DNA of 39,249 nt from NCBI GenBank assembly GCA_003152875.1, contig PMBF01000010.1, positions 1 through 39,249 of the forward strand, written 5' to 3'. Both the position numbers and the translations under genes were made by a program. Under the pieces are notes generated by a model. It made no database searches. It was given only the letters and a program-made list of their open reading frames with translations, and had not been told where the DNA came from. Shown piece by piece: positions 9,677-21,651 of this stretch (its first letter is position 1; every line of letters starts with the position of its first letter). Source of the DNA: Ignavibacteriota bacterium (GTDB lineage Bacteria; Bacteroidota; Ignavibacteria; UBA10030; UBA6906).

Positions 9677-10426
9677 CTATGCCGCGAGATCTGCTACCTT
9701 TCTCCTTACAGGCACCATCGACCCCTTGCTGATACTCAGATACAGCTCCTCGTAGGTAAGCTCGTCGAAAAGACAGCAGCGGAACGTGTTCAGCATCGCG
9801 CTGGCGACGGCCAGATTGGTGAACAGGAGTTGCGGCGCAGATCCCTGGGAGAGGGCATCACACCCCGGGTCCCGGGGTTCGCGCGGTGCCGGATGCTCAA
9901 TTTCAGGATGAAAACGCGTGAGGGCATTGGTGATGGTGTTGCCGTCACTGCGTATGAAAATCTGGACGTTTCCGAATGTACCGTCTTTGCCTTCCTCAAC
10001 TCCGTCATTGCTTCCGGAAATGAGAATAACATTCTGCAATCCTTCGCAGTGCCGGCTCACTGCCAGCCGGGTAGCGTGGTTGTCAACGCAGAGAAATACC
10101 AGGTCATGCTCTCCGATCACACTCCCGATATTGGTGACCGTCACATCATCGGGAACCGGACGGTAGTGAGTGAATTCAGGAAAGGCTTTCGCCAGCTCTT
10201 CTGATTTTGCCATAGCCTTGTTTGTCATGCTGCTGAAGAGCATCCGCTCTTGATTGCGAGGCTCATAGCTGTCGCCATCAACAAGAAACATCGTGCATTC
10301 ACGTTTCAGAGAATGAAGGAACTGGCTCAAGAACAGGCTCACAATCGACCCTATCCCGCCAAGCCCGATCATAACAATCTTGCTGTGCTGAAGACCGCCT
10401 CGTGTGTGTAGCGGCTCGTTCGTCAT
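9677..10426 (-). CDS. ThiF-family E1-like activating enzyme (module B)
   Basis: A 249-residue protein; ATG at 10426 follows GGAGG nine bases upstream. It has the adenylation core of E1/ThiF/MoeB enzymes: nucleotide loop GLGGIGS (21-27), acidic Asp50/Asp52 in VDGDSYEPRNQERM with Asn58 and Arg61, Lys70 and Lys74, and Asp115 in CVDNHATR. Cys189 in DPGCDALSQG is a candidate thioester cysteine; the following LLFTNLAVASAMLN and YLSISKGSMVPV resemble the C-terminal part of ThiF proteins of PRTRC cassettes. It lacks a rhodanese or zinc domain. Expected reaction: ATP-dependent adenylation of a modifier C-terminus, likely the Gly-Gly protein at 12280-12648. It is the last gene of the operon. Confidence 0.88.
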   Translation of the reverse strand: MTNEPLHTRGGLQHSKIVMIGLGGIGSIVSLFLSQFLHSLKRECTMFLVDGDSYEPRNQERMLFSSMTNKAMAKSEELAKAFPEFTHYRPVPDDVTVTNIGSVIGEHDLVFLCVDNHATRLAVSRHCEGLQNVILISGSNDGVEEGKDGTFGNVQIFIRSDGNTITNALTRFHPEIEHPAPREPRDPGCDALSQGSAPQLLFTNLAVASAMLNTFRCCLFDELTYEELYLSISKGSMVPVRRKVADLAA

Positions 10427-10773
10427 AGTGTTTCCCGCCTCCTTTCTTGTTGGCGATCGCACAAGACGGAGTGACTCTCCAGGCCCCTCTCCGGTGTCGC
10501 TTTACCGTCTTTTCGATCCTGAGATGAGGTCCCATAGTGACTTTGATTGATCATCTCCGGGTATGCTATCGTGCCCCCGTCCGGGGATTGTGCTCGAGTC
10601 AAGCAGAAATCTTTCGAGTGGAAGATCGTACCCGGCAGTCCCGGTCTTTGGTCATGCACATCCGCTGAAGGTCCCACGACACTACCGCTGCAGCTGTCTC
10701 GCCGCATGACTCCACACAGCGCCTGCACCCGCGTCGAACTACCATCGATCGTCGTCATGTGGGGGTTGTGCAT
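10423..10773 (-). CDS. Candidate 116-residue gene between JAMM peptidase and E1
   Basis: This frame fills the only sizeable gap in the operon. Its stop overlaps the start of the E1 gene in an ATGA arrangement, typical of translational coupling, and its start would overlap the end of the JAMM gene. The product is polar and unrecognised (it contains GVMRRDSCSG and LPGTIFHSKDFCLTRAQ) with a very basic C-terminus that contains the E1 gene's ribosome site. No good ribosome site precedes its ATG at 10773. It may be a fast-evolving component or simply an untranslated spacer. Confidence 0.3.
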   Translation of the reverse strand: MHNPHMTTIDGSSTRVQALCGVMRRDSCSGSVVGPSADVHDQRPGLPGTIFHSKDFCLTRAQSPDGGTIAYPEMINQSHYGTSSQDRKDGKATPERGLESHSVLCDRQQERRRETL

Positions 10774-11479
10774 GACGCGTCTCTGGTGTTTTTTGTGTTC
10801 CTTCTTTCCGCCCGGGACCGGAGACACAACTGATCTTCGAAAGCCATGAATCAGGCGGCAGCAGCGGCGCGTAGCGTTCATGGCCGGCGAGGACATCATC
10901 GGGGTGCAGCATGAATCTCCTCCCATTGACAACGAATGAGACACTGACATCGGGGCGGGCCCTGTCCACCTCACCTATGGTAATGTGGAGACCGTCCTCG
11001 TGTTCTTCATCACGATCATCAATGAAACTGTGAAACGCGGGAAAGCCGGCATGGGAATGGACCGTGCCGAGTTTCACATACTGTGGAGGACGTTCACAGC
11101 TTTCATAGACCACATGGCCCGTCGAGTCCTTGCTCCCAGTTGCCGCACTGCTGTAGATCTGTTGTGGAGGGACCTTGATGCAGAATGAGCGGGTGTCTTT
11201 CGAGTAGTAGAGAAAAACAATTGCCTCTCCTCCGTGCAGGCAGAATGCAGCCCGGAAGAACCCGAGAACCCGGCACATCAGCGAATATGGTACCCTACCG
11301 AACTCCCGCGTGAGGTCCTCGGTATGGTTCAGGAGGCCGAGGACGCTTCCGTCGGGCCGCACAGAAGCCGAATAGAGCCCCATCTTCTTGACCAAAAAGG
11401 TTCCGTTTCCGGCGACAAGGAGATAAACGGGGTCCCTGGGCTCTCGGAAATCCCTGTTCTTGACGTAGATCGGCAGCAT
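10739..11479 (-). CDS. JAMM/JAB metallopeptidase (module B)
   Basis: A 246-residue protein, start chosen at 11479 because AAGGA lies seven bases upstream and the gap to the previous gene becomes 10 bases (an upstream in-frame start exists). The JAMM zinc motif is intact: Glu85 in GGEAIVF, His141-Ser-His143 in TVHSHAG, Ser151 and Asp154 in SFIDD. JAMM enzymes hydrolyse (iso)peptide bonds after ubiquitin-like C-termini. In this operon it would trim the tail after Gly-Gly of the modifier or reverse conjugation. N-terminal 1-75 is a beta-rich extension, resembling the layout of PRTRC protein A. The C-terminal ~30 residues are polar and probably disordered. Confidence 0.83.
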   Translation of the reverse strand: MLPIYVKNRDFREPRDPVYLLVAGNGTFLVKKMGLYSASVRPDGSVLGLLNHTEDLTREFGRVPYSLMCRVLGFFRAAFCLHGGEAIVFLYYSKDTRSFCIKVPPQQIYSSAATGSKDSTGHVVYESCERPPQYVKLGTVHSHAGFPAFHSFIDDRDEEHEDGLHITIGEVDRARPDVSVSFVVNGRRFMLHPDDVLAGHERYAPLLPPDSWLSKISCVSGPGRKEGTQKTPETRHAQPPHDDDRW

Positions 11480-11489
11480 CGCAGTTCCT

Positions 11490-12302
11490 TCATTCTTCAG
11501 GATATGGGCATTGGTTGATGACATCGACAAGATCACCGGAGCAGGAAATGTCGGAGCCCGGGGCAACGATGTTCAGCATGGTATCCATGACCTCTTCGAT
11601 CGTTGAGGCGGCAGGGGGCCACTCAACCTTCAGAGGAAAGGAATGATCCTCTGCGCTTGCTTTCTCCCAGTTTTCGATGCTTCCGATCCGTGGGTCCAGA
11701 TCGCGCAGCCTGGTCCACTGGGAGATCAAATCGCTTGCCTCCGGGCTCTTGTTGAATGCCCGGGTCCAGAAGTACTCCACGAAGAGACCGATCTTCTGGT
11801 CCCACGGGAGATGGGCGACGATAAGGCTCTCTCCCGTATGCGTGATGCACAGCCAGCAGGCCAACCCTCCACGCCGTGTGCAGTTTCGCAGGTTCGAAAG
11901 AAACAGGGAATCCTTCAACGACCGTATCGGGGCGTTCCGATAATATGCCTGTTGATAGTTGGAGAGGTTTCCGCCGCTGAAGAGGATGAAAAGAACCACG
12001 TACGGAAATGCCAGTCGAACCGTCTGATAGTCAGCGCGCGGGCCGTACGGCGCCTCCGACGAATCTTTGATCCATCGTACCTGCCGGTACTGAGGGCGCA
12101 GTTCAAGGACAACCAGGACGTGGTCTCCACGTCTCCGGACAAACCGGACGCTGTCGGGCAACGGATCCTTAAAGAGATCTCTCTCAGACATATGGTTCAT
12201 TCTCCGGACGAAATCCGAGACCCGGATCCGGCGAGCCGCCGTTTGGCCCTTGAAGAGAGTGACGAGTTCGTCTTCGATTTCAATGCGGTAGTCGGCTTCC
12301 AC
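11490..12302 (-). CDS. Probable second E2-like (UBC-fold) protein, PRTRC-B-like
   Basis: A 270-residue protein. The likely start is GTG at 12302, eight bases after AGGAGG located inside the end of the modifier gene, giving a 23-base overlap and translational coupling. The centre reads RLAFPYVVLFILF (97-109), AYYRNAPIRS (119-128), LFLSNLRNC (133-141) and LACWLC (147-152). This order, a hydrophobic Pro-containing strand, a Tyr-Arg-x-Ala-Pro turn, an Asn-Leu-x-Asn segment and then Cys, resembles the divergent prokaryotic E2 families such as the one in PRTRC protein B. Cys141, Cys149 or Cys152 could carry the thioester. Classical HPN is absent, so the assignment rests on pattern and gene context. 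Confidence 0.55.
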   Translation of the reverse strand: MEADYRIEIEDELVTLFKGQTAARRIRVSDFVRRMNHMSERDLFKDPLPDSVRFVRRRGDHVLVVLELRPQYRQVRWIKDSSEAPYGPRADYQTVRLAFPYVVLFILFSGGNLSNYQQAYYRNAPIRSLKDSLFLSNLRNCTRRGGLACWLCITHTGESLIVAHLPWDQKIGLFVEYFWTRAFNKSPEASDLISQWTRLRDLDPRIGSIENWEKASAEDHSFPLKVEWPPAASTIEEVMDTMLNIVAPGSDISCSGDLVDVINQCPYPEE

Positions 12303-12648
12303 CTTTTTCGCCTCCTTCCTTGGTGAATTCCAGCATATCGTCCTGCTGCAGAATGTGGTCGGGGGCAACAGCAGCCCCGTTCACGAGCGCAATGGCGCCG
12401 GGTCCGATGTTCATCACATATTGAAGCATCGCGCGCACCTCGCCAACTGTCCGGGTCGCCACCGGAAAGGGCTGGCTGTTTGCGCCGCTGATGATGAAGA
12501 CATCCCCTTCCTGCATCGCATTGCCAAGAGCTCTGTTCACATGATCGATCGCCTCGTCCAGCGGTTCCGGGGCCGTCTCTTCCGCCGGCGGGAGCTTCTG
12601 GTCCGCCCCGCTATTGTCCTTTCGATAACGCTCCTGACTGATGGTCAT
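12280..12648 (-). CDS. Ubiquitin-like modifier with Gly-Gly and C-terminal tail (module B)
   Basis: A 122-residue protein; GGGAGAGA precedes the ATG. Residues 1-45 are polar (disordered or helical). Residues 48-117 look like a beta-grasp domain of MoaD/ThiS/ubiquitin type: DVFIISGANSQPF strand pair, helix with VGEVRAMLQYV, then AIALVNGAAVAPDHILQQDD and MLEFTKEGG. The end is Gly116-Gly117 followed by Ser-Arg-Leu-Pro-His. A five-residue tail after Gly-Gly means that a peptidase must expose the Gly-Gly before E1 activation, as in eukaryotic pro-ubiquitin-like proteins; two JAMM peptidases are encoded alongside. It is 13 bases after the AAA+ gene and overlaps the E2-like gene. Confidence 0.78.
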   Translation of the reverse strand: MTISQERYRKDNSGADQKLPPAEETAPEPLDEAIDHVNRALGNAMQEGDVFIISGANSQPFPVATRTVGEVRAMLQYVMNIGPGAIALVNGAAVAPDHILQQDDMLEFTKEGGEKGGSRLPH

Positions 12649-12661
12649 GGCTGTCTCTCCC

Positions 12662-14383
12662 TTAGAATATGAGGAAGTGTTTTTCCACACTCAGTACTGT
12701 GCTGCCTTCCGGGATATCGACGTAGTCGCCCGCATCGTTCCTGTCGATATTCCCGATGACGCTGTTGAAGCGCCGGATACACGCCTCGCGCACATCGTCC
12801 CACCGGATGCCGAGGAACTCCTCGTCGAGGGATGCTCCTGCAGTTTCATCGCGCTTCAGGGCTGCTTGCGCGGCAGGGGTGATGATTCCTTCGACAAGAT
12901 CCGCGCCGGTTACCAGATCGCGGCCGGCATAGGCTCGTTGTGTCCCACCCGCGAATCGTACCCTCACCAGTTCGAGGAATTGTTCCGACAGGAATATGAA
13001 ATCGCACAATGCCATTGCAAGTGATTGAGGCGTCTCGCCGGCGCTGATGAGCGTCTTGGCGAGATTTCGACGTGCAATCTCCACGCACTGGCGATAACCA
13101 GGCCGTTCTGCCCTGACAAGGGGTAGACGGCCGGGTCGCAGGATAGCGGGGTCAATGCATGAGGAGTTGTTGTCGATGGCTATGGTGAGAACGTCCGTCG
13201 TCCCGATGATATGGAGCAGCGTATTCGTCAAATCGCTGTGCGCCTGGACGCCGCCGTTGTCGGCCGCAGCGGCGGACCGGCGCATGAATGCGGGGCTGGC
13301 CTCGTCAATGACGACCACGGGAACGCGTTGGGTTCGCCGGGCTATCGCCGACAAACGGCGATAGAGCGAAAGGGCGCGATGTTCCGATTCGCCGAACCAT
13401 TTGCTTGCGAAGTAAGCGCCCGTTACGTATTTGACAAGAACCTTGGTCCCGCTCAGCCTCTCTACTTCGTGGAGCGCGGCGGCGGCAAGCATGCTCTTCC
13501 CCGTGCCAGTGGGACCCGAGATGAAGACACCATGATTGCGGGCCAGAGTGCCACCATGGCCATTCAAGTTGTACAGACGAAGGCCGGCAGGGTTCCGCAT
13601 CTGGTGAAGCAACAGGGTCTCGAGCTCCTCCCACGCACGATCCTGGCCGACCACGTCATTGCGGCCGTATGCGGGCAGCGCGTCGAGTCCATCGGCAAAC
13701 AACTCGTCCCCATCGCAGTCTGGGATGATCTCCACCGCCAGCAGGAAGTTGTTTGTCACCTCGATGACGCGGACCGCCGTTTCCTCGGGCTTCATCGCCT
13801 CCTGGCTGAGCTCACTGCTGAGAGACACAAGCATTTCTCCCTGCCCGTTATCGAATCGGACGCACGCCCTCCGGTCCCCCACCAGACGCACGACGGTTCC
13901 AATACGGCCGAAAGAGGATGAGACGGACCGGCCGGTCAGCCGTGTCACATATCGGCATTGCTGATCGAGCCAGAGGAGAGAATGTCCCGGTGTGAGCGTC
14001 TCTGATGACAGCTCGGCACTCATGGGGACTTCGAGCAGCGACCCGCGGCAAGCAACGATGACGTTGCGGGCGCTTGTGCTGTGACCGTTGTCATGCCGCT
14101 CAAGCATCCCGCCCTCGGAGACGTACATCGCGCCCACGAGACCGCCGTCGCGAATCCTTTCGAGCTCGTCTCGTGCCTCTCTCAGGGCGCTCTCCACCTC
14201 TCCGCTCCGCTGGTAGGTCGTGCGCCAGCCGCTCAAGAGATAGGCGAGCGTTGCCGGCAGTTCTTCATGATGGCGAGCCAGCAGGAGAAATAGTTCCTCC
14301 TGAGTCTCCGGCAGTCCTGCTTCGCCTTCGTCCTTCGTGACAAAGGCCTGAATTGCCGCATGTATGCTTTCGTGTTCACTCAT
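12662..14383 (-). CDS. AAA+ ATPase, proteasomal-ATPase-like (coiled coil, OB-like, AAA)
   Basis: A 573-residue protein; ATG at 14383 with AGGAAGG upstream. A helical N-terminus (1-80), ending in a charged heptad-like helix VESALREARDELERIRDGG, is followed by about 110 residues of beta-rich sequence that read as one or two OB-like barrels (SLLEVPMS..., GTVVRLVGDRRACVRFDNG). The AAA module has Walker A GPTGTGKS (290-297), Walker B VVVIDEAS (~356-363), SKWFGESE and the DPAILRPGR segment with the Arg finger. Coiled coil, then OB, then AAA is the order in PAN, ARC and Mpa, which unfold substrates for proteasomes. The last residues are FLIF, hydrophobic but not a strict hydrophobic-Tyr-X ending. 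It lies in the centre of the operon and probably handles the tagged proteins. Confidence 0.85.
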   Translation of the reverse strand: MSEHESIHAAIQAFVTKDEGEAGLPETQEELFLLLARHHEELPATLAYLLSGWRTTYQRSGEVESALREARDELERIRDGGLVGAMYVSEGGMLERHDNGHSTSARNVIVACRGSLLEVPMSAELSSETLTPGHSLLWLDQQCRYVTRLTGRSVSSSFGRIGTVVRLVGDRRACVRFDNGQGEMLVSLSSELSQEAMKPEETAVRVIEVTNNFLLAVEIIPDCDGDELFADGLDALPAYGRNDVVGQDRAWEELETLLLHQMRNPAGLRLYNLNGHGGTLARNHGVFISGPTGTGKSMLAAAALHEVERLSGTKVLVKYVTGAYFASKWFGESEHRALSLYRRLSAIARRTQRVPVVVIDEASPAFMRRSAAAADNGGVQAHSDLTNTLLHIIGTTDVLTIAIDNNSSCIDPAILRPGRLPLVRAERPGYRQCVEIARRNLAKTLISAGETPQSLAMALCDFIFLSEQFLELVRVRFAGGTQRAYAGRDLVTGADLVEGIITPAAQAALKRDETAGASLDEEFLGIRWDDVREACIRRFNSVIGNIDRNDAGDYVDIPEGSTVLSVEKHFLIF

Positions 14384-14411
14384 GGGAATACCCTTCCTCC
14401 TGTCGCGGTGA

Positions 14412-15467
14412 TCAGTCATCGAAGACAAAAGCCTCATGCTCGGGGATGATGAACCCGTTGTACCATCCCCAGATGCCGATTTGCACCTCCTGTGCAGCCG
14501 GCTTCGAAACAATGCACGTGCACTGGAAGTGCTGCCAGAAGAATTGACGGTGGATCCCTCGATCAGAGGGGCTCATGAACACAGCCGTCCTGCGCGGCAC
14601 CAGCATGCTCGGATGGGAGTGACCTTCGCCCAGAAGGATTCCTCTCCCCGAACGGGTTCTACGGTAGTGAGACCAGCACAACCCGTTGATCGTGACAGAG
14701 GCACCGGTTTGCTTCGCACCCACGGCAGGGATGCATTCGCTGATGACCCGTGCAAAACTTGCGGATCGGGAGTCGTAGAGAACATCGCCCTCAAGGAAGC
14801 ATGCCTCCTCGGCGTTGTCCTGCTCACTCCGTTCGCCCAGGGCTTCGAGTGCGCGATGGACCTCTCTGCTCATGAATGTGGTCACCGGGGCGGGGCAGGC
14901 ATCCGAGTCCTGCCGGGAGAGCTGGATGCGGTTCGACCGGTTTTTCAGAGCGTCGATGTCGGTCTCCAGAATCGGCGGCACCTTGAGATGAAGGCTCATG
15001 GGCGGCCCGGCCGGGTCGAAATGAAGACAATACCTGACTTCGGGGGGGACAACCGCGATGCCGTCCCGCTGTTCCGGTGTAAGCGGTTGTCTGGTCTGCG
15101 CTGCATGGCGAGCCGCCAGATCACTGACCAGGTCTATGAGCGTCACGCGCTTGAAGTCGCATGTTCCAACCAGCTCACCGCGCGCATTCTCCATGTCGAT
15201 GAGGAAGGATAGCAGGCACCTCGTCTGTGGGGAGGAGGCGCACCTGTCCTCGCCCGGCCTTATCCGGAAGTTCAGATGATCCCCCGGGTGGGCCTGCCGC
15301 CCCCCATAATGGAGGGACAGGCAGGCTGAGGCGTACGGACGAAGATGCGCCGTCGAGAGCATCTCAGTCGCCGCCATCGGATCTTCTCCCAGGCGCGCCT
15401 CCAGGTAAAGCTGCGATGGCGCGACCCGTGACTCTGCAGCAGAAGGCATCTGTTCGGAGATCTCCAT
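14412..15467 (-). CDS. JAMM/JAB metallopeptidase with N-terminal extension (module A)
   Basis: A 351-residue protein. Residues 1-195 are an unrecognised domain with a beta-rich part (RYCLHFDPAGPPMSLHLKVPP). The C-terminal ~150 residues hold a JAMM core: Glu222 in AEEACFLEGDV, His283-Ser-His285 in EGHSHPS, Ser299 and Asp302 in FMSPSDRG, followed by FQCTCIVSKPAAQEVQIGIWGWYNG, typical of the last JAB strands. Expected activity is zinc-dependent removal or maturation of a ubiquitin-like protein. It differs clearly from the second JAMM peptidase in the same operon, so the pair is not a recent duplication. It starts eight bases after the small beta-grasp-like gene. Confidence 0.85.
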   Translation of the reverse strand: MEISEQMPSAAESRVAPSQLYLEARLGEDPMAATEMLSTAHLRPYASACLSLHYGGRQAHPGDHLNFRIRPGEDRCASSPQTRCLLSFLIDMENARGELVGTCDFKRVTLIDLVSDLAARHAAQTRQPLTPEQRDGIAVVPPEVRYCLHFDPAGPPMSLHLKVPPILETDIDALKNRSNRIQLSRQDSDACPAPVTTFMSREVHRALEALGERSEQDNAEEACFLEGDVLYDSRSASFARVISECIPAVGAKQTGASVTINGLCWSHYRRTRSGRGILLGEGHSHPSMLVPRRTAVFMSPSDRGIHRQFFWQHFQCTCIVSKPAAQEVQIGIWGWYNGFIIPEHEAFVFDD

Positions 15468-15475
15468 GACAGGCC

Positions 15476-15742
15476 TCAGGCGGGCGTCAGGTCGGGTGCA
15501 ATCGTATACGCCTCGTCAGAATCCAGCTCAGACACATCAGCGCTCGGCGCGATGATGTTCCCATGCGAATCCTGGACGCTCCACTCGACGATGTTTCCCT
15601 CAACAGTGCGGGAGGCAAGCTGGAGCCTGTCGACCCAGGCGGGAATGGCTCGTTCAACAGTTGTTGTCGGAACGACGGGGACCTCCACCTCGTCTACTCC
15701 ATCGTAACTGCGTACACGGATCGCTCTCGCTCGGTGTTCCAT
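15476..15742 (-). CDS. Small ubiquitin-like (beta-grasp-like) protein (module A)
   Basis: An 88-residue protein with AGAGG seven bases upstream of its ATG. Predicted order is strand (ARAIRVRSYDG), strand (VEVPVVPTTTV), a helix (RAIPAWVDRLQL), then strands around NIVEWSVQDSHGNII and a Ser/Asp-rich turn, ending DEAYTIAPDLTPA. Size and order fit a minimal beta-grasp protein such as YukD/ubiquitin, and its place between E2-like and JAMM genes supports that. There is no Gly-Gly or even a C-terminal Gly, so if it is a conjugated modifier it needs processing at an unusual residue; otherwise it may be a non-covalent adaptor. Sequence similarity alone is too weak for certainty. Confidence 0.6.
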   Translation of the reverse strand: MEHRARAIRVRSYDGVDEVEVPVVPTTTVERAIPAWVDRLQLASRTVEGNIVEWSVQDSHGNIIAPSADVSELDSDEAYTIAPDLTPA

Positions 15743-15760
15743 GACGGACCTCTCTTTCTT

Positions 15761-16582
15761 TTAGTGGACGTTGAATGCATGATAGAGCCGGCTGACGACG
15801 GGATCATGCAGGAATGACAAATTGCGGAGCTCGTGTAATCCCTGGAGAAACATCTCAGAGCGTCGGCCAAACCCGCCGAGTTCTATGGCACAGAACGGCA
15901 CGAAGGCAATAAGCATGGGATGACCCTCATGATCGATCGCCGCGCGGCAACCCGTGAACTCTCTGCTCCTGTCCAGCAGGTAATGACGTAATGACTCAGA
16001 GTGGATGGGTGTTTCCGATACCTGCGAGCGGAGTTCCACCATTGGACCTGGTACGGTGTTGCACTGCAGCCGGTATGGTGCACTGCGGCGCGTAACCACA
16101 ATTTCTGCGGTAAGACTGCCGTCATCCTGCGCCGCAAACTTTATGACTTCCGACTCGAGCGCGCACCGGAGTCGCTGCATACGGCGCGGGTCTTTATCCT
16201 CTATGCCGTCCGGATGCGGCGCCCTGCACTGCTTCCCGCCTTTGACGCACGTCAACGGAGCACTGAGGTCGGCCATGATCTCTCGGGTGACTTCAAGATC
16301 TTCCGCGAAGATGTCAGCCTGGACGGTCACCCGACCACCGGCAACGGCGAACCCCCAATACCGGCTTGCAGCGTTGGCCGCAAGCATGTCTGTGCGTGAA
16401 CTGTCACAGGACGGGTCATACCGTGTCAACCTGAGAACGTCACGATGCAGCTGCTCCACGCTGACGTTGTAGGGTCCGCCCTGGCCGCAGATCTGATACT
16501 CCTTCTGCGCGACGCTGCCGTCTGACGCCGTTACGCGCAGATCACCGAGTGCAGCGTCAAATCGTTCCCAGAGTGTTGTCAT
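15761..16582 (-). CDS. Unknown operon component, two-repeat protein
   Basis: A 273-residue soluble protein with AAGGAGAA upstream of the ATG. Two similar halves can be suspected: RYWGFAVAGGRVTVQADIF followed by helix DLEVTREIMADL, and GCRAAIDHEGHPMLIAFVPF followed by helix RSEMFLQGLHEL. A pair of strands followed by an amphipathic helix in each half resembles the YbjN/type III secretion chaperone fold, but this is only a pattern impression. The protein sits between the E2-like and the small beta-grasp-like genes with 11- and 18-base gaps, so it is certainly part of the operon. Possible roles are chaperone, substrate adaptor or modifier-binding subunit. Confidence 0.6.
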   Translation of the reverse strand: MTTLWERFDAALGDLRVTASDGSVAQKEYQICGQGGPYNVSVEQLHRDVLRLTRYDPSCDSSRTDMLAANAASRYWGFAVAGGRVTVQADIFAEDLEVTREIMADLSAPLTCVKGGKQCRAPHPDGIEDKDPRRMQRLRCALESEVIKFAAQDDGSLTAEIVVTRRSAPYRLQCNTVPGPMVELRSQVSETPIHSESLRHYLLDRSREFTGCRAAIDHEGHPMLIAFVPFCAIELGGFGRRSEMFLQGLHELRNLSFLHDPVVSRLYHAFNVH

Positions 16583-16593
16583 ATCCGTTCTCC

Positions 16594-17091
16594 TTAAAAC
16601 AACGGTCTCGGATCCGTGGGGAAAGTTTCCGGCGGCTGTTCAAGCACAAACCTTACGATCTCCGCATTGACGGCGCTCTTGAGATTGAATTTCTGATATG
16701 TCAGGATGCGGTATGCGTGGAGAAGAAGTGTCTCCGCGGGGATGTATAGGGGCATGGCTTCGCCGAGACAGATGCCGAACCCGTCGCTGTTCGGATGAGC
16801 GAACAAGCCACAGGGCTCATGGATAAAGCTGTGGAGCGGCACGGGTTCCGCTTCGCCTGCATAGAACCCAAGGATGAAGGGACTGCTTCCCAGGGTGAAC
16901 GTATCATGTCCGGGAGGATGATGCAGCACGGTTCGGATATCGCTCAAAGCCACAAGAACGGATTCATTGACCGTATTGCAGTGCAGAAAGGTCGCGCGGC
17001 CATGTGTCCTGGCGCATGCCTCCTTTATTCCCTCCGCATAGTTACGAAGGATCTGGCTCCGGTGGTGAAGATCGCTGGCGAATCTCTCCAT
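16594..17091 (-). CDS. E2-like ubiquitin-conjugating-fold protein (module A)
   Basis: A 165-residue protein, about the length of a bare UBC domain. ATG at 17091 lies one base after the E1 stop and is preceded by AGGAGAGG. Residues 72-110 read ILGFYAGE, then PCGLFAHPNSDGFGICLG: this is the E2 signature, with His99-Pro100-Asn101 and a Cys108 seven residues later in G-x-C-L. The following YIPAETLLLHAYRILTYQKF helix and the NLKSAVNAEIVRFV end match the C-terminal helices of E2s. It should accept the activated modifier from the neighbouring E1 on Cys108 and pass it to a target lysine or to the RING-bound substrate. The N-terminal 50 residues are helical. Confidence 0.82.
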   Translation of the reverse strand: MERFASDLHHRSQILRNYAEGIKEACARTHGRATFLHCNTVNESVLVALSDIRTVLHHPPGHDTFTLGSSPFILGFYAGEAEPVPLHSFIHEPCGLFAHPNSDGFGICLGEAMPLYIPAETLLLHAYRILTYQKFNLKSAVNAEIVRFVLEQPPETFPTDPRPLF

Positions 17092-17092
17092 G

Positions 17093-18196
17093 TTAGCCTC
17101 TCCTGAGCAAAGCCTCTTTGCAGGCGGCGCTGATCTCTGTTGCGAAATAGAGATAACGGCCATGTCCTACTCCCAACACCACGTCTCCCTCCGGCAGCCC
17201 GAACTCAGAGAGTGTAAGGGCGGCGGCATCGGAACGCCTTTCCCCGGCCAGGATCCGGTGGTATGCGCCGATGGGAGTCAGGCCCGTTCCGCACTGACAG
17301 ATCGGGGCTTCGTCGGCCAGACGCAGCATGGCACGTTCGGTTGAGCAGCCGGCACAGAAGAAGTGGTCGGACCACCGCCGGTCGCCAAGCTCAATGAAAG
17401 CGTCGGGGCCCAGCATCTCGGCGATAATGCCGAATAATTCCTGGAGAAGGATCTCGTGTATACTCCTTCCCAGCTCAATTGTATTGTCCGGGCGGCGCTC
17501 GAACGTGTGGTAGAATGCCGGGCATGCGGTGCTGAACGAGAGCCTCGCCTTGAGGGCGACGCCCGCAGTCGGGTTCACGATCAGGCTCTCCCCCGCGCGT
17601 TCCTCCTGGCGGTGCGGCGCCCTCAAAAGGTCTGCAATGACGTTCACTTGAAGTGCGGAGGCGAACCTTGCCGCCTCACCACTCGCCCGCGGGCCGCCCC
17701 GGGTGCAGCTGTGGGGAGCCGAGACAGGAGCCTCCCATCTCCCGCGCGGCCGGGCGCAGCCTATGCATGCATGTGATGCTCGGAAATTCAACACTCGGAC
17801 CTGTCCGGCTCCCGAACGAGGATCGCAATTTGCAAAGACGATGCATGGCTTTTTCTCTGACTGAGAGACAATGCGGCAAATCGTATAGGCCGCGGCATCG
17901 TTGTCGGTGGCCGCGGAAACCAGATCGAAGCTGTCAACGATCCCCGGGCTGATGCGGCTCACATCGGCGTCCAGCTCCGTCACCAGCATGTCCGGACGAT
18001 GTGTGCGAAGATGGTCGCTGACAACCGCAACCTTGCGACGGCCGACGTCGCGGGAGGAAACATTCGCGATCCCGACGTTGCCTGCGGCCACATAGTCCTT
18101 GTCACACAAGAGCAGGAACTCAACATCTGCCGGAAGACCGGCGGCGGTATGGGAGCCTATCGCCCCGCACCCTATGTGCAATACGTTCTTGCCCAT
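17093..18196 (-). CDS. ThiF/E1-like activating enzyme with zinc ribbon (module A)
   Basis: A 367-residue protein. ATG at 18196 has GGAG eight bases upstream; an alternative ATG at 18202 overlaps the previous stop in an ATGA arrangement. The nucleotide fold shows GCGAIGS (9-15), Asp32/Asp34 in CDKDYV, Asn40, Lys55 and Asp98 in TDNDAA. Cys164 in APHSCTRGG is the best candidate active-site cysteine. Zinc ligands are probably CIGC (144, 147) and the late set CAGC (281, 284) with CQC (300, 302). It lacks the canonical Arg-Gln after Asn40, so it is divergent. Expected role: ATP-dependent activation of a ubiquitin-like C-terminus for the adjoining E2-like protein. Confidence 0.86.
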   Translation of the reverse strand: MGKNVLHIGCGAIGSHTAAGLPADVEFLLLCDKDYVAAGNVGIANVSSRDVGRRKVAVVSDHLRTHRPDMLVTELDADVSRISPGIVDSFDLVSAATDNDAAAYTICRIVSQSEKKPCIVFANCDPRSGAGQVRVLNFRASHACIGCARPRGRWEAPVSAPHSCTRGGPRASGEAARFASALQVNVIADLLRAPHRQEERAGESLIVNPTAGVALKARLSFSTACPAFYHTFERRPDNTIELGRSIHEILLQELFGIIAEMLGPDAFIELGDRRWSDHFFCAGCSTERAMLRLADEAPICQCGTGLTPIGAYHRILAGERRSDAAALTLSEFGLPEGDVVLGVGHGRYLYFATEISAACKEALLRRG

Positions 18197-18198
18197 TG

Positions 18199-18711
18199 TC
18201 ATGTCTCCGGGAAATAGTCCCGAATGAGCCTTGAAGTCTTCTCAGATTGGGGGGTATCCTGCAACTCCTTTCCACATGTCATGCACTTGCCGCCGAACGC
18301 CTCTATACAGCGCTGACAGTGGTTCTTGGCGCAATGACGTTTTCCCGGTTCATCGATCCTCAGTCCGCATCCATCGCAGCGCGTCCCTGCAAGCGCGTCG
18401 GATGCCGTGTCTTCAAACACAATTCCAAACGCGAGCATCTGCCCGTCTTCGCGCATACGGCACACGGCGGTTCCGTCGATATTGTAGAGCCCCCCTGTCA
18501 CCCTGTTGCCGTTGATCGTAAGGGATCCACTTCCTGCTGTCCGGATTGCCACAACGTTTCTTGCATCTGTCCGGTACATGACCAGGCGCTTGCCTCGCCA
18601 TCCGGTTCCAGGATCGAAGGGCCCGACACTCCCGTCCTGACAGTCAACAGTCACGGGGCACGCCTCCGTGAGAGTGAGTTGCGTCGACGATGTCACCAGC
18701 AGGATTGTCAT
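18199..18711 (-). CDS. RING-like zinc-finger protein with FHA-like N-terminus (putative E3)
   Basis: A 170-residue protein, start at 18711 (weak GGGAA site; an in-frame TTG at 18768 is possible). Residues 1-105 are beta-rich, with SLTINGNRVTGGLYNIDGTAV resembling the latter strands of an FHA-like fold. Residues 112-146 hold a compact cluster: Cys112, Cys115, His126, Cys127, His131, Cys132, Cys135, Cys143, Cys146. At least eight of these can form two zinc sites as in a RING or related treble-clef finger. Prokaryotic RING fingers linked to E1/E2 operons are documented. Its stop is two bases from the E1 start. A substrate-recruiting E3 role is inferred. Confidence 0.72.
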   Translation of the reverse strand: MTILLVTSSTQLTLTEACPVTVDCQDGSVGPFDPGTGWRGKRLVMYRTDARNVVAIRTAGSGSLTINGNRVTGGLYNIDGTAVCRMREDGQMLAFGIVFEDTASDALAGTRCDGCGLRIDEPGKRHCAKNHCQRCIEAFGGKCMTCGKELQDTPQSEKTSRLIRDYFPET

Positions 18712-18808: not shown

Positions 18809-19333
18809 TCATGGGAGAACGAGCCTTAGGTTCCCCGGTGCGGTGCTGATTCGGTACGACGTGCTCCCCCTCAGACCCGTGTCCACAAGTTTACGGGACA
18901 CACCATGGGCCGCAAACTTGTTCCTCAAATCGTAGACACCGCGGGCAAGTTCATGGTCGGCGAACCTTGCGCTCTCGCCGGACTTTTGCAGCGATGTGCC
19001 AGGCCCGGTTTCGCTGGCGAGGGTCTCTTTGGTCACCCATCCCATTCCCGAGGGCGCCCGCGACCCATCTCTCTCGTCCTTCTGCATTTGATCGATCAAG
19101 GCTTTCAAGAATGAATATTGCCTCTCTGTAATTCCAAACGAGGTAGTGTCCACGATGATGTCATATATCCTTTTGTTTCCGGCGAGAGTCTTACGAAGCG
19201 TTACCTTGTACGAGGTTTCAAAATCACCGGAAGCCTTCGGGTGTGAGTCCGCCTTATCGCCGCCCTGCTCGCTCACCAGGACGTTGATCTCAATGCGGAG
19301 AACTTCTTTGAGAGGTAGTCCCTGTCGATCCAT
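18809..19333 (-). CDS. Winged-helix-like protein at the head of the operon
   Basis: A 174-residue protein; ATG at 19333 follows GGAGGTGACC, an excellent ribosome site (the frame extends upstream to a GTG at 19573 but with atypical sequence). Residues 1-65 form beta-strands (LRIEINVLVSE, SYKVTLRKTL, RIYDIIVDTT). Residues 69-174 read as a winged helix: helix ERQYSFLKALIDQMQ, helix KETLA, long helix ARGVYDLRNKFAAHG, then the wing STSYRISTAPGNLRLVLP. It probably binds DNA and regulates the operon, or serves as a DNA-recognition subunit. The 97-base gap to the RING gene is the widest inside the array. Confidence 0.6.
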   Translation of the reverse strand: MDRQGLPLKEVLRIEINVLVSEQGGDKADSHPKASGDFETSYKVTLRKTLAGNKRIYDIIVDTTSFGITERQYSFLKALIDQMQKDERDGSRAPSGMGWVTKETLASETGPGTSLQKSGESARFADHELARGVYDLRNKFAAHGVSRKLVDTGLRGSTSYRISTAPGNLRLVLP

Positions 19334-19569
19334 GGTCACCTCCATATGCTCTGTGTGGTGTCCGTTCACGGCGATTCTCTCTGCGTCTAGTGTTTCCAGG
19401 AGATTCTGACGTCGAAGGACCTTCGTGGGATGCGAAGATGTCCGGCTGTACTGACGCACGACGCGAGGGCTCCCCCTGGCGGTCTGCAGGGAACAGGGCG
19501 AGCGTGGCCAGCAACAAGAGTCGACAAAGGAGGGCGGCGGTAGAGTGTCATGCATGGAGTTTGCATCAT
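19290..19569 (-). pseudogene. Possible frameshifted signal-peptide ORF upstream of the winged-helix gene
   Basis: A ribosome site GGAGG (19573-19577) precedes two tandem ATGs (19569, 19566) whose frame begins MQTPCMTLYRR and stops at 19387. In a second frame the DNA immediately after reads LLCRLLLLATLALFPADRQG, an ideal signal-peptide core, and continues to a stop at 19290. One shift near 19540 would join them into a secreted protein of about 90 residues. This might be decay, an assembly error or coincidence. It also lies where an operon promoter could be. Confidence 0.22.
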
Positions 19570-19744: not shown

Positions 19745-20512
19745 TCAGAGAGGAACATCAAGCAGGAATTCAACCTGCCATGTGTCGGCGAAGGAGAAGT
19801 CGATTGGAGCGAGGGGAACCCTGTGAGTGGTCAATTCCGCCATGACAAAGCGTGGTGCATCAAGAGTCAATTTGTCCGGAAACTTTGTCCGCAGGAGATA
19901 CGCCCAGATCAGCGTTTCTGTCCCCCCCATGCCGAAAGCGCATAGAATGTCAGGGTCATCCTTGTGACGTTTTGGCGGATGAACGAGATACATCGCGGTC
20001 CTGGAAGGGAATCCCGCCTTCTGCATCGAGAGCAATCCGTGACTGCTGTAGCTCTTGTATGTTGCGCCGTAGCCCCCCTTGAACTCGATGCACGCTCTGT
20101 TGGCCACCGCGACAGGGAGCTGCTCCGCAAGTCTTGGAGAGAGCTCGACAATCAGTCGAGTGCAGGATCTCAAATACGGTCTCAATGCCGCGAATACCTT
20201 GTTCTCCAGAGTGGTGTGGCTGCGGGAGATCAACTTTTTCCCCTTCGCTTTTTCGTCGTCCAGCGGCGGCCGGGTTGTGAGAACAATGAGATCATTTGAT
20301 GTGACAAAACTCGTATCGACTCTTCGCGGACGGGCTCCTTTCTTTGGAGGGAAATTGAGGATCAGCCCGCCGTAGGTGTATCCCTTCTGATTCAAGAGCG
20401 CGGAGATTTCATTGAACGCATCTGCATCACGGAGCTGATGGGGGCGCAGCTGCCGATCGTTTTTGCTCGGCATGAAATATCCGAATCTGAAGAGTCTGGG
20501 CTTCTCAATCAT
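19745..20512 (-). CDS. Unknown protein upstream of the ubiquitin-like operon
   Basis: A 255-residue protein if started at the ATG 20512, where TGGAG lies seven bases upstream; the same frame is open to 20605 through TTG and GTG codons. No family is recognised. Visible segments: FRFGYFMPSKND near the start, YTYGGLILNFPPKKG, ENKVFAALRPYLRSCTRLIVELSP, FKGGYGATYKSYSSHG, ILCAFGMGGTETLIWAYLLR and a beta-rich end. It is soluble, with no signal peptide. A 411-base gap separates it from the operon, so membership is uncertain, but orientation is the same. The open frame upstream of the ATG also looks coding, so the gene may be longer and damaged (see findings). Confidence 0.55.
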   Translation of the reverse strand: MIEKPRLFRFGYFMPSKNDRQLRPHQLRDADAFNEISALLNQKGYTYGGLILNFPPKKGARPRRVDTSFVTSNDLIVLTTRPPLDDEKAKGKKLISRSHTTLENKVFAALRPYLRSCTRLIVELSPRLAEQLPVAVANRACIEFKGGYGATYKSYSSHGLLSMQKAGFPSRTAMYLVHPPKRHKDDPDILCAFGMGGTETLIWAYLLRTKFPDKLTLDAPRFVMAELTTHRVPLAPIDFSFADTWQVEFLLDVPL

Positions 20513-21651
20513 GTGGCGACTCCACTCATCGTTTTTGGCGCACTCAAGATCGAAAAGAAGAACGCAAAATGCCACCGGGTGCCGGGAATATTCTCCCCTC
20601 CGCAATCTTTATCAAATCCTGAGTGTCGATCTTAACAGTGAATGTTGCATTTCGGGGGTCGGTGCTGATTCCGCCGGTTTCTTTGCTGCCATGACCAGCG
20701 CACGGCTCGAGGAAATACTCAACCCGGACAGGGCAGGCGTGCTCTCCCCGGAGGGATGGTATATTTTCGGAGCACTTCATCATCGTGGGTGATAGGAGGG
20801 AAACATAACCTGAGCACTAACAACGCCGGCCCGAAAGTCCGATGCATCATGACTACGTGGCTCCGTGCAACAAGACCAGGCATTCGGAGTCGTGTGCAGG
20901 TACGGGAAACTTTGATATACGATTCCATGTTGTCGAACTCAGAAATCATGATCACCTCTTCAATATCGCCGATGATGGTCTGCCAACCAGCGACGAAGTG
21001 ATATCCGCTTTTCTCCTATCTCAGATTCCCGAGCCAGGGATTACGCACCTCAAGTTTCTCCGGAACCACCCCTGCTGAATGCTCGCGATAATCCGCGAGG
21101 TCCTATCCGGGCTCAGGCTCTCCCCACATGATTGCCTCTTTGCCGGCGACCGGTTTTCGTCTTGGCGACCGCCAGCTCGAGACTATACGTTCGGAAGTGT
21201 CTCGTCATGATCCAATCCACAATATCTATCATTTTGGTCCCCTGGACCCTTCTGGTGTCCGACTCCGGGCACTCATCTGCATCAAGGAAAATGCGTTGAA
21301 GGAGATGATCCGGAGGTCCCGCATCAATGAGTGGCGAGCCTTGTCCAGGAGAACCTTATCTCACGGCCAACGTATACTCTTTCATGTGCCGTTGGCTTGA
21401 GACGTTTGCCTCCGCATCCAGACGAGCTGGCGGGGAGCGCTGCGGCCTTCGTCCTGGCAGAGATCCCTGTGCAGCTCTATGTGTCGTACCAGACTCCCCG
21501 GTTAGCGGCTGAAATACCGGTGGAATCCATACGATATGAACACGTTGGTGCGGGTGTTGAGGAGTGTGATGCGGCTTCTTGTTGGATGTAAACGGCTCTT
21601 AGGTTGTCGCGTGTCGGATCCATCCTGAATGAATTCCTCATAGGAGCATGC
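20513..21651. other. Poorly coding region with protein-like fragments in several frames
   Basis: About 1.1 kb without a gene that has a good start and continuous frame. The minus strand has a 79-codon frame (20544-20783) and a 78-codon frame (20719-20955); the plus strand has fragments at 20842-21078, 21079-21207, 21128-21400 and 21331-21591. Some have plausible protein composition, such as DEVISAFLLSQIPEPG and AAAFVLAEIPVQLYVSYQ. This is the appearance of a decayed gene or of several remnants. The final bases carry the AGGAGC site of the next gene. Confidence 0.4.

Follow-up and report, generated by a model that had tools for sequence, protein, structure and literature searches.

On the minus strand of the window, the 39,249-nucleotide stretch of Ignavibacteriota DNA analysed here (assembly GCA_003152875.1, contig PMBF01000010.1), 11 consecutive genes (g01-g11) run from position 18711 to position 9677, with sensible starts and a ribosome-binding site ahead of most of them. 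In transcriptional order they encode the putative components of one ubiquitin-like conjugation set (set 1, g01-g06), an AAA+ ATPase resembling the proteasomal unfoldase Mpa/ARC (g07), and a second conjugation set (set 2, g08-g11) made up of a predicted ubiquitin-like modifier, an E2-like protein, a JAMM peptidase and an E1. We consider it on balance probable that g07-g11 represent a PRTRC-type conjugation cassette coupled to the Mpa/ARC-like unfoldase, and that this mobile cassette has been combined with a second conjugation set. The original prediction, which a model made from the DNA letters and their open reading frames (ORFs), had counted 11 or 12 genes with gaps of 1-97 bases. The 11-gene operon stands and the gap range does not: the junctions from g01 to g10 measure 1-28 nt or are overlaps (-4 and -23 nt), g10 and g11 lie 312 nt apart, and the 97 nt separate g01 from a further ORF upstream (g00). 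Inspection of the g10-g11 gap (10427-10738) revealed no convincing ORF; it may be the site of a promoter, of a small RNA or of a decayed extension of the JAMM gene, phage JAMM proteins being much longer at the C-terminus.

Set 2 is complete and conserved, and we regard this as solid. The modifier gene g08 (12280-12648, minus strand, as are all operon genes) has homologues in phage, candidate phyla radiation (CPR) and Planctomycetota loci. The original prediction had made it a Gly-Gly modifier; the conserved C-terminal feature is not a GG pair but G-x-K-G (G113-E-K115-G116 in g08, followed by a GSRLPH tail), with G113 invariant and K115 and G116 at 98% across 41 distinct modifiers. The AlphaFold2 (AF2) model of g08 is confident only over residues 48-112 (predicted local distance difference test, pLDDT, of about 95), and its nearest structures by Foldseek are SUMO1, FUBI, ubiquitin, MoaD and TtuB (probability 1.00, E of about 2e-3), so that g08 is predicted from this model to be a beta-grasp modifier. 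Overlapping it by 23 nt, g09 (11490-12302) encodes an E2-like protein of the Prok-E2_D type, with N140 and the putative catalytic C152 invariant across a 12-row alignment of the E2 family. Because the Cys column fell on C149 in a separate alignment of only 10 E2 sequences, the assignment of C152 as the exact catalytic residue is less certain. Prok-E2_D (PF14460) is matched by 7 of the 12 aligned g09 relatives (best 1.8e-6), g09 itself giving no match.

The next gene, g10 (10739-11479), encodes a PRTRC_A-like JAMM peptidase that matches Prok-JAB (1.8e-4) and PRTRC_A (1.5e-7) and carries the catalytic Glu and HxHx7SxxD motif (E85, H141, H143, S151, D154), with the Glu, both His, the Ser and the Asp each at 96-97% among 75 distinct JAMM relatives. 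The operon closes with g11 (9677-10426), a PRTRC_ThiF-like E1 (Pfam ThiF, 3.6e-16; PRTRC_ThiF, 7.2e-8) with GxGGxG and DGD motifs. Its nucleotide-binding glycines, DGD, R61, K70, D115 and C189, the invariant candidate catalytic Cys, are 99-100% conserved in 73 distinct E1 relatives. Since the viral loci were picked by their match to DGDxYExxN, an E1 motif, the conservation seen at those few positions follows in part from the selection; the conservation of C189, R61, K70 and the JAMM residues is not affected by it. Profile searches of the PDB with the modifier, E2 and JAMM families returned no significant match. Taken as a sequence signal, the conservation of catalytic residues in set 2 supports function.

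As judged from gene order and protein similarity, g08-g11 is a PRTRC-type cassette, corresponding to class 6d of Iyer et al. 2006 (PMC1779556). The PRTRC genes of the Cupriavidus necator plasmid pHG1 are annotated in the order C-F-B-A-ThiF, and the window order of modifier, E2, JAMM and E1 is equivalent to C-B-A-ThiF, save for the F gene between C and B on pHG1. The pHG1 C protein ends in FVRAAGAKG-AHARI and g08 in FTKEGGEKG-GSRLPH, which gives a common modifier end of the form ...F-x-R/K-x-x-G-x-KG plus a tail. The two differ in that g10 and g11 score 31.1 and 32.0 bits against NCBIfam cut-offs of 101.8 for PRTRC_A and 144.75 for PRTRC_ThiF, that the window cassette is accompanied by an Mpa-like ATPase, and that in the E1 tree g11 falls within a phage/CPR/Planctomycetota branch, outside the pHG1 ThiF. 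No match to ParB-family proteins, PRTRC E or PRTRC F was found among the window genes scanned. The window cassette is a variant of the known PRTRC/6d conjugation cassettes and not a categorically new system.

The ATPase gene g07 (12662-14383) encodes an AAA+ protein in which inspection identified a Walker A motif (GPTGTGKS), a Walker B motif (VVVIDEA), an aromatic pore loop (KWFGESE) and an arginine-finger region (LRPGRL). It matches Pfam AAA (4.6e-12) and Prot_ATP_ID_OB_C (3e-4); its best full-length model is TIGR03689 (pup_AAA/Mpa; 7.3e-26, residues 60-515), with weaker matches to PAN (4e-14) and CDC48 (1e-12), and among solved structures the closest in sequence are Cdc48/p97 D2 domains. Like Mpa/ARC of the Pup-proteasome and Cdc48 D2, g07 combines this best model with an OB-like region and a D2-like aromatic pore loop. 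Unlike Mpa/ARC, it scores 90.9 bits against a TIGR03689 cut-off of 504.75, ends in ...KHFLIF without an HbYX motif, and is encoded beside ubiquitin-like conjugation genes in a genome without a 20S gene that we could find: a PF00227 search of this 97%-complete genome returned only HslV, with HslU alongside, and no 20S core. Searches with g07 found no relative in 296 genomes of the phylum, and viral contigs gave no match when scanned with g07 or g02 as single proteins.

A motif-guided scan identified 77 viral and 17 genomic contigs with set-2-type genes, and the ATPase-cassette pairings described below turned up in loci that had not been chosen for ATPases. (Search alignments A1 and A8, which include rows with randomised non-motif positions, served solely to direct searches and did not count as evidence.) In a Planctomycetota genome, G733, the gene order is ATPase, a 441-aa gene, modifier, E2, JAMM and E1 (locus L110). 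The ATPase is 23% identical to g07 over 357 columns, through the distinctive C-terminal region, and has TIGR03689 as its best model (4e-18), while the E1s of G733 and a further genome, G646, are sister to g11 (tree support 96/92). The original prediction had a ubiquitin-like conjugation cassette share an operon with a proteasome-ATPase-like AAA+, and since a second phylum has the same pairing, chance does not account for the neighbourhood. As to recurrence of the gene order, no other copy of the 11 genes was found, whereas the g07-g11 order is present in G733 with one gene inserted; the inserted gene (L110:11538-12863) encodes a degenerate AAA/STAND-like NTPase.

In 34 phage contigs the cassette has a member of a second AAA family, F7, in its neighbourhood, and F7 relatives stand 2-3 genes after the cassette at two Planctomycetota loci, L114 and L115, which count as one event because their ATPases are 76% identical. 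An ATPase has been joined to this kind of cassette on separate occasions, and in this respect the earlier reading was too narrow: other genomes repeatedly show the tagging cassette with an AAA ATPase close by. A terminase-like ORF, recognised by eye, lies near the L115 cassette and suggests a prophage or phage-like element.

Set 1 is the less certain of the two, its E1 being the only component confirmed by a family model. This E1-like ThiF protein, g02 (17093-18202), has CxxC pairs, matches Pfam ThiF (1.7e-12) and PADLOC E1-E2 (2e-14), and groups with the E1 domains of Cap2 from the cyclic-oligonucleotide-based anti-phage signalling system (CBASS; tree support 100/98), a placement that is provisional because of the long branches. 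It is preceded by g01 (18199-18711), a 170-aa protein that the original prediction had called a RING protein. Its C-terminal Cys/His cluster (C112-x2-C115-x11-C127-x3-H131-C132-x2-C135-x7-C143-x2-C146) is RING-like by eye only: the ligand spacing is non-canonical for RING, and comparison with the Pfam RING and Prok-RING models gave no match at E<=1, only Cript at 0.97. The putative E2, g03 (16594-17091), is named from its motif alone, with H99-P100-N101...C108 (HPNSDGFGIC) placing HPN and Cys at E2-like spacing; it has no family or PDB match, and a scan with the HPN-motif pattern gave 6 pattern matches, none of them a relative. The 273-aa product of g04 (15761-16582) has no significant match in Pfam, NCBIfam or PADLOC. 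The putative JAMM protein g06 (14412-15467), likewise identified by its motif (EGHSHP...SPSD), has 13 residues before the Ser of HxH...S..D instead of 7, and no family match.

Between them lies g05 (15476-15742), a candidate ubiquitin-like protein of 88 aa that ends in ...DLTPA and that the original prediction had called beta-grasp-like, a fold that is unproven. Its single-sequence AF2 model has a pLDDT of 48 and no fold match in the PDB. CBASS cGAS proteins have a C-terminal Gly or Ala (PMC10097602), so the terminal Ala of g05 would fit a CBASS-like E1, and by this analogy g05 could be a second modifier. The best reading of g01-g06, from sequence relationships, is of a second, CBASS-E1-like conjugation set in the same operon, whose modifier may be g05, g08 or a different protein. 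In the profile searches that the original prediction had proposed, then, ThiF (g02, g11), JAMM (g10) and AAA (g07) were recovered, and family matches for g01 as RING, g03 and g06 were not; of its two complete sets, set 2 holds, set 1 retains its E1, and the RING and second modifier are unproven.

Relatives of set 1 were sought in several places. Searches with g02 found none in 341 genomes of the class and nothing above 1e-10 in 392 Planctomycetota (a search run without a positive control), and g03 and g06 had no match on plasmids. Phage E1b and E2b proteins were considered as relatives of g02 and g03 and rejected: the tree groups g02 with CBASS E1s and not with E1b, and a profile comparison of g03 with E2b was insignificant beyond the motif (1.8% probability). 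The two divergent copies of each step in the original prediction suggest a duplication of one set, a reading that was likewise rejected: the E1s belong to different branches, CBASS-like for g02 and PRTRC-like for g11, so that the two sets look combined rather than duplicated.

Several known systems resemble set 1 in part. CBASS Cap2/Cap3, an E1-E2 fusion with a JAB protein, shares the g02-type E1 and neighbours with E2 and JAMM motifs; unlike CBASS, the window carries E1 and E2 on separate genes, together with an extra Cys-rich protein, g04 and a candidate modifier. CBASS nucleotidyltransferase (CD-NTase) models gave no match to the operon proteins, among which no effector gene was recognised, and the models for BilA-D gave only a weak BilD match for g11 (6e-4), common to other E1 models. 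Prokaryotic RING/E1/E2/JAB operons were reportedly described by Burroughs et al. in 2011. Set 1 is like them in having separate E1, E2, JAB, RING-like and small candidate ubiquitin-like genes, and differs in the unconfirmed RING identity of g01 and in being joined to a PRTRC-type set and an ATPase. The operon of the archaeon Caldiarchaeum subterraneum, with ubiquitin, E1, E2, RING and deubiquitinase genes and, as described, no ATPase (PMC5654768, PMC11354881), also places a full cascade with an E3-like protein in one operon, but uses other families.

The operon most likely sits on the chromosome, and not on a phage contig or in a binning error, because the contig encodes proteins with type IX secretion system (T9SS) sorting domains to either side of it; the same proteins disfavour contamination. 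Among 98 genomes of the order searched with g11, only the window's own genome matched, and the absence of the operon from the other 97 suggests that it was acquired. No insertion-type repeats were found flanking the operon, its GC content at third codon positions is not clearly different from that of the right-hand flank, and the flank gene taken for synteny comparison is unique to this genome within its family. Upstream of the operon, g00 (18809-19345, minus strand) is by eye a possible winged-helix regulator with no Pfam match, whose membership in the operon is uncertain, and further upstream a 286-aa protein (19745-20605, minus strand) has no Pfam or PADLOC match.

Gene order, family relationships, conserved catalytic residues, the predicted modifier fold and the recurring ATPase beside the cassette are observed; from them we infer the enzymatic steps, tag recognition by g07 and the cellular role. 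In the proposed pathway, g10 would trim g08 after the glycine of GEKG, and g11 would adenylate g08 and then hold it as a thioester, probably on C189. The modifier would pass to C152 of g09, which would attach it to target proteins. Hexameric g07 would recognise the tagged proteins and unfold or extract them by way of its aromatic pore loop, and g10 may also recycle the tag. Overall this would amount to a 'tag and remodel' route of the Cdc48/Mpa kind that has no 20S protease of its own. Plasmids and phages carry the cassette, so that roles in phage-host conflict and in element maintenance are both plausible.

A number of results weigh against this reading. The g10-g11 spacing of 312 nt is wide, no ubiquitin-like-binding domain was recognised in g07, and no complete relative of set 1 was found in the searches. 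An Mpa-like ATPase with the cassette is known from only two genomes, in one of which, G733, the contig stops within the ATPase gene, and CPR and many other cassettes have no nearby ATPase. We hold only tentatively the more ambitious proposal of a complete bacterial tag-and-unfold pathway without a proteasome, in which the CBASS-like set, perhaps with its own E3-like protein, would feed the same ATPase, and ATPase coupling would have at least two origins, one in bacteria and one in large phages.

A rather doubtful alternative, though the strongest rival, is that the PRTRC-type cassette is a plasmid or phage maintenance or DNA-linked module, and that the ATPase and set 1 are island neighbours that do not act on the tag. 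This would fit the position of the PRTRC genes beside a ParB-family gene on pHG1, the cassettes on plasmids and in phage contigs near RNA polymerase genes, and a probable acquisition of the operon, which is missing from the other members of the order searched. Hitchhiking nevertheless explains poorly why AAA genes of two families stand beside the cassette in separate settings; the window genes are also tightly packed or overlapping, and those tested gave no ParB-family match. We think it improbable that the operon is a degradative pathway like that of ubiquitin and the proteasome, with g07 feeding tagged proteins to HslV or another chamber protease: g07 does resemble proteasome ATPases and the genome does encode HslV, but that sole PF00227 match has its own HslU adjacent, g07 lacks a C-terminal HbYX motif, and JAMM-type proteins are the only peptidase genes in the operon. 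The parallel with the ubiquitin-proteasome route and the claim of two complete sets are the two places in which the original prediction was too broad. Sulfur-carrier or cofactor biosynthesis of the ThiS/MoaD-ThiF type in place of protein tagging is highly improbable, since the E1 and modifier folds are common to ThiF/ThiS and MoeB/MoaD but an E2-like protein and a JAMM peptidase are conserved partners here, the operon proteins matched no rhodanese, ThiG or MoaE family, and thiamine and molybdenum-cofactor operons never occur with JAB genes (Iyer 2006, PMC1779556).

Iyer et al. 2006 considered the links of bacterial ubiquitin-like systems to ATP-dependent proteolytic machines 'less clear' (PMC1779556). 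In the genomes compared here, members of two phyla pair a bacterial conjugation cassette with the gene for a proteasome-family ATPase, and phages and other Planctomycetota have an ATPase of a second family in the vicinity of the cassette. ATPases beside related cassettes in large phages and in a second phylum make it possible to test the idea that bacteria first tag proteins and then unfold them. Should the tag prove to be read by the ATPase, ubiquitin-unfoldase coupling would not be confined to the proteasome, and the PRTRC genes, which have long gone uncharacterised, could be given a function that is open to test.

The wider collection of cassettes shows further arrangements. In one lineage of large uncultivated phage contigs (L004-L026, L028, L031-L036 and similar loci, for example L012:7123-14009) the order is E2 (about 860 aa), JAMM, E1 and modifier, then a second ThiF protein with GAA or GGA at its end, and a small E2-like protein with HPN...C, all just before RNA polymerase beta' (Pfam RNA_pol_Rpb1). 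PHROGs coverage of these phage proteins is weak, and g11 had no match among 50,697 annotated phage records. In a second phage lineage (L027, L030, L037-L039, L041-L046, L048-L055, L057-L063, L068-L071, L076 and L077) the order is E2, JAMM, E1, modifier and the F7 ATPase (about 534 aa), after which come a number of small conserved genes and another two E2-like proteins. CPR (Patescibacteria) and similar small metagenome-assembled genomes (L082, L085, L086, L087, L093 and L094) carry a minimal modifier-E2-JAMM-E1 cassette, which at L093 adjoins ordinary chromosomal-looking genes and has no ATPase. The modifier at L078:7744-8373 consists of two tandem ubiquitin-like units, each with a GxKG ending, and the small genome G984 (L116:137-5862) carries two divergent E2-JAMM-E1 copies in tandem.

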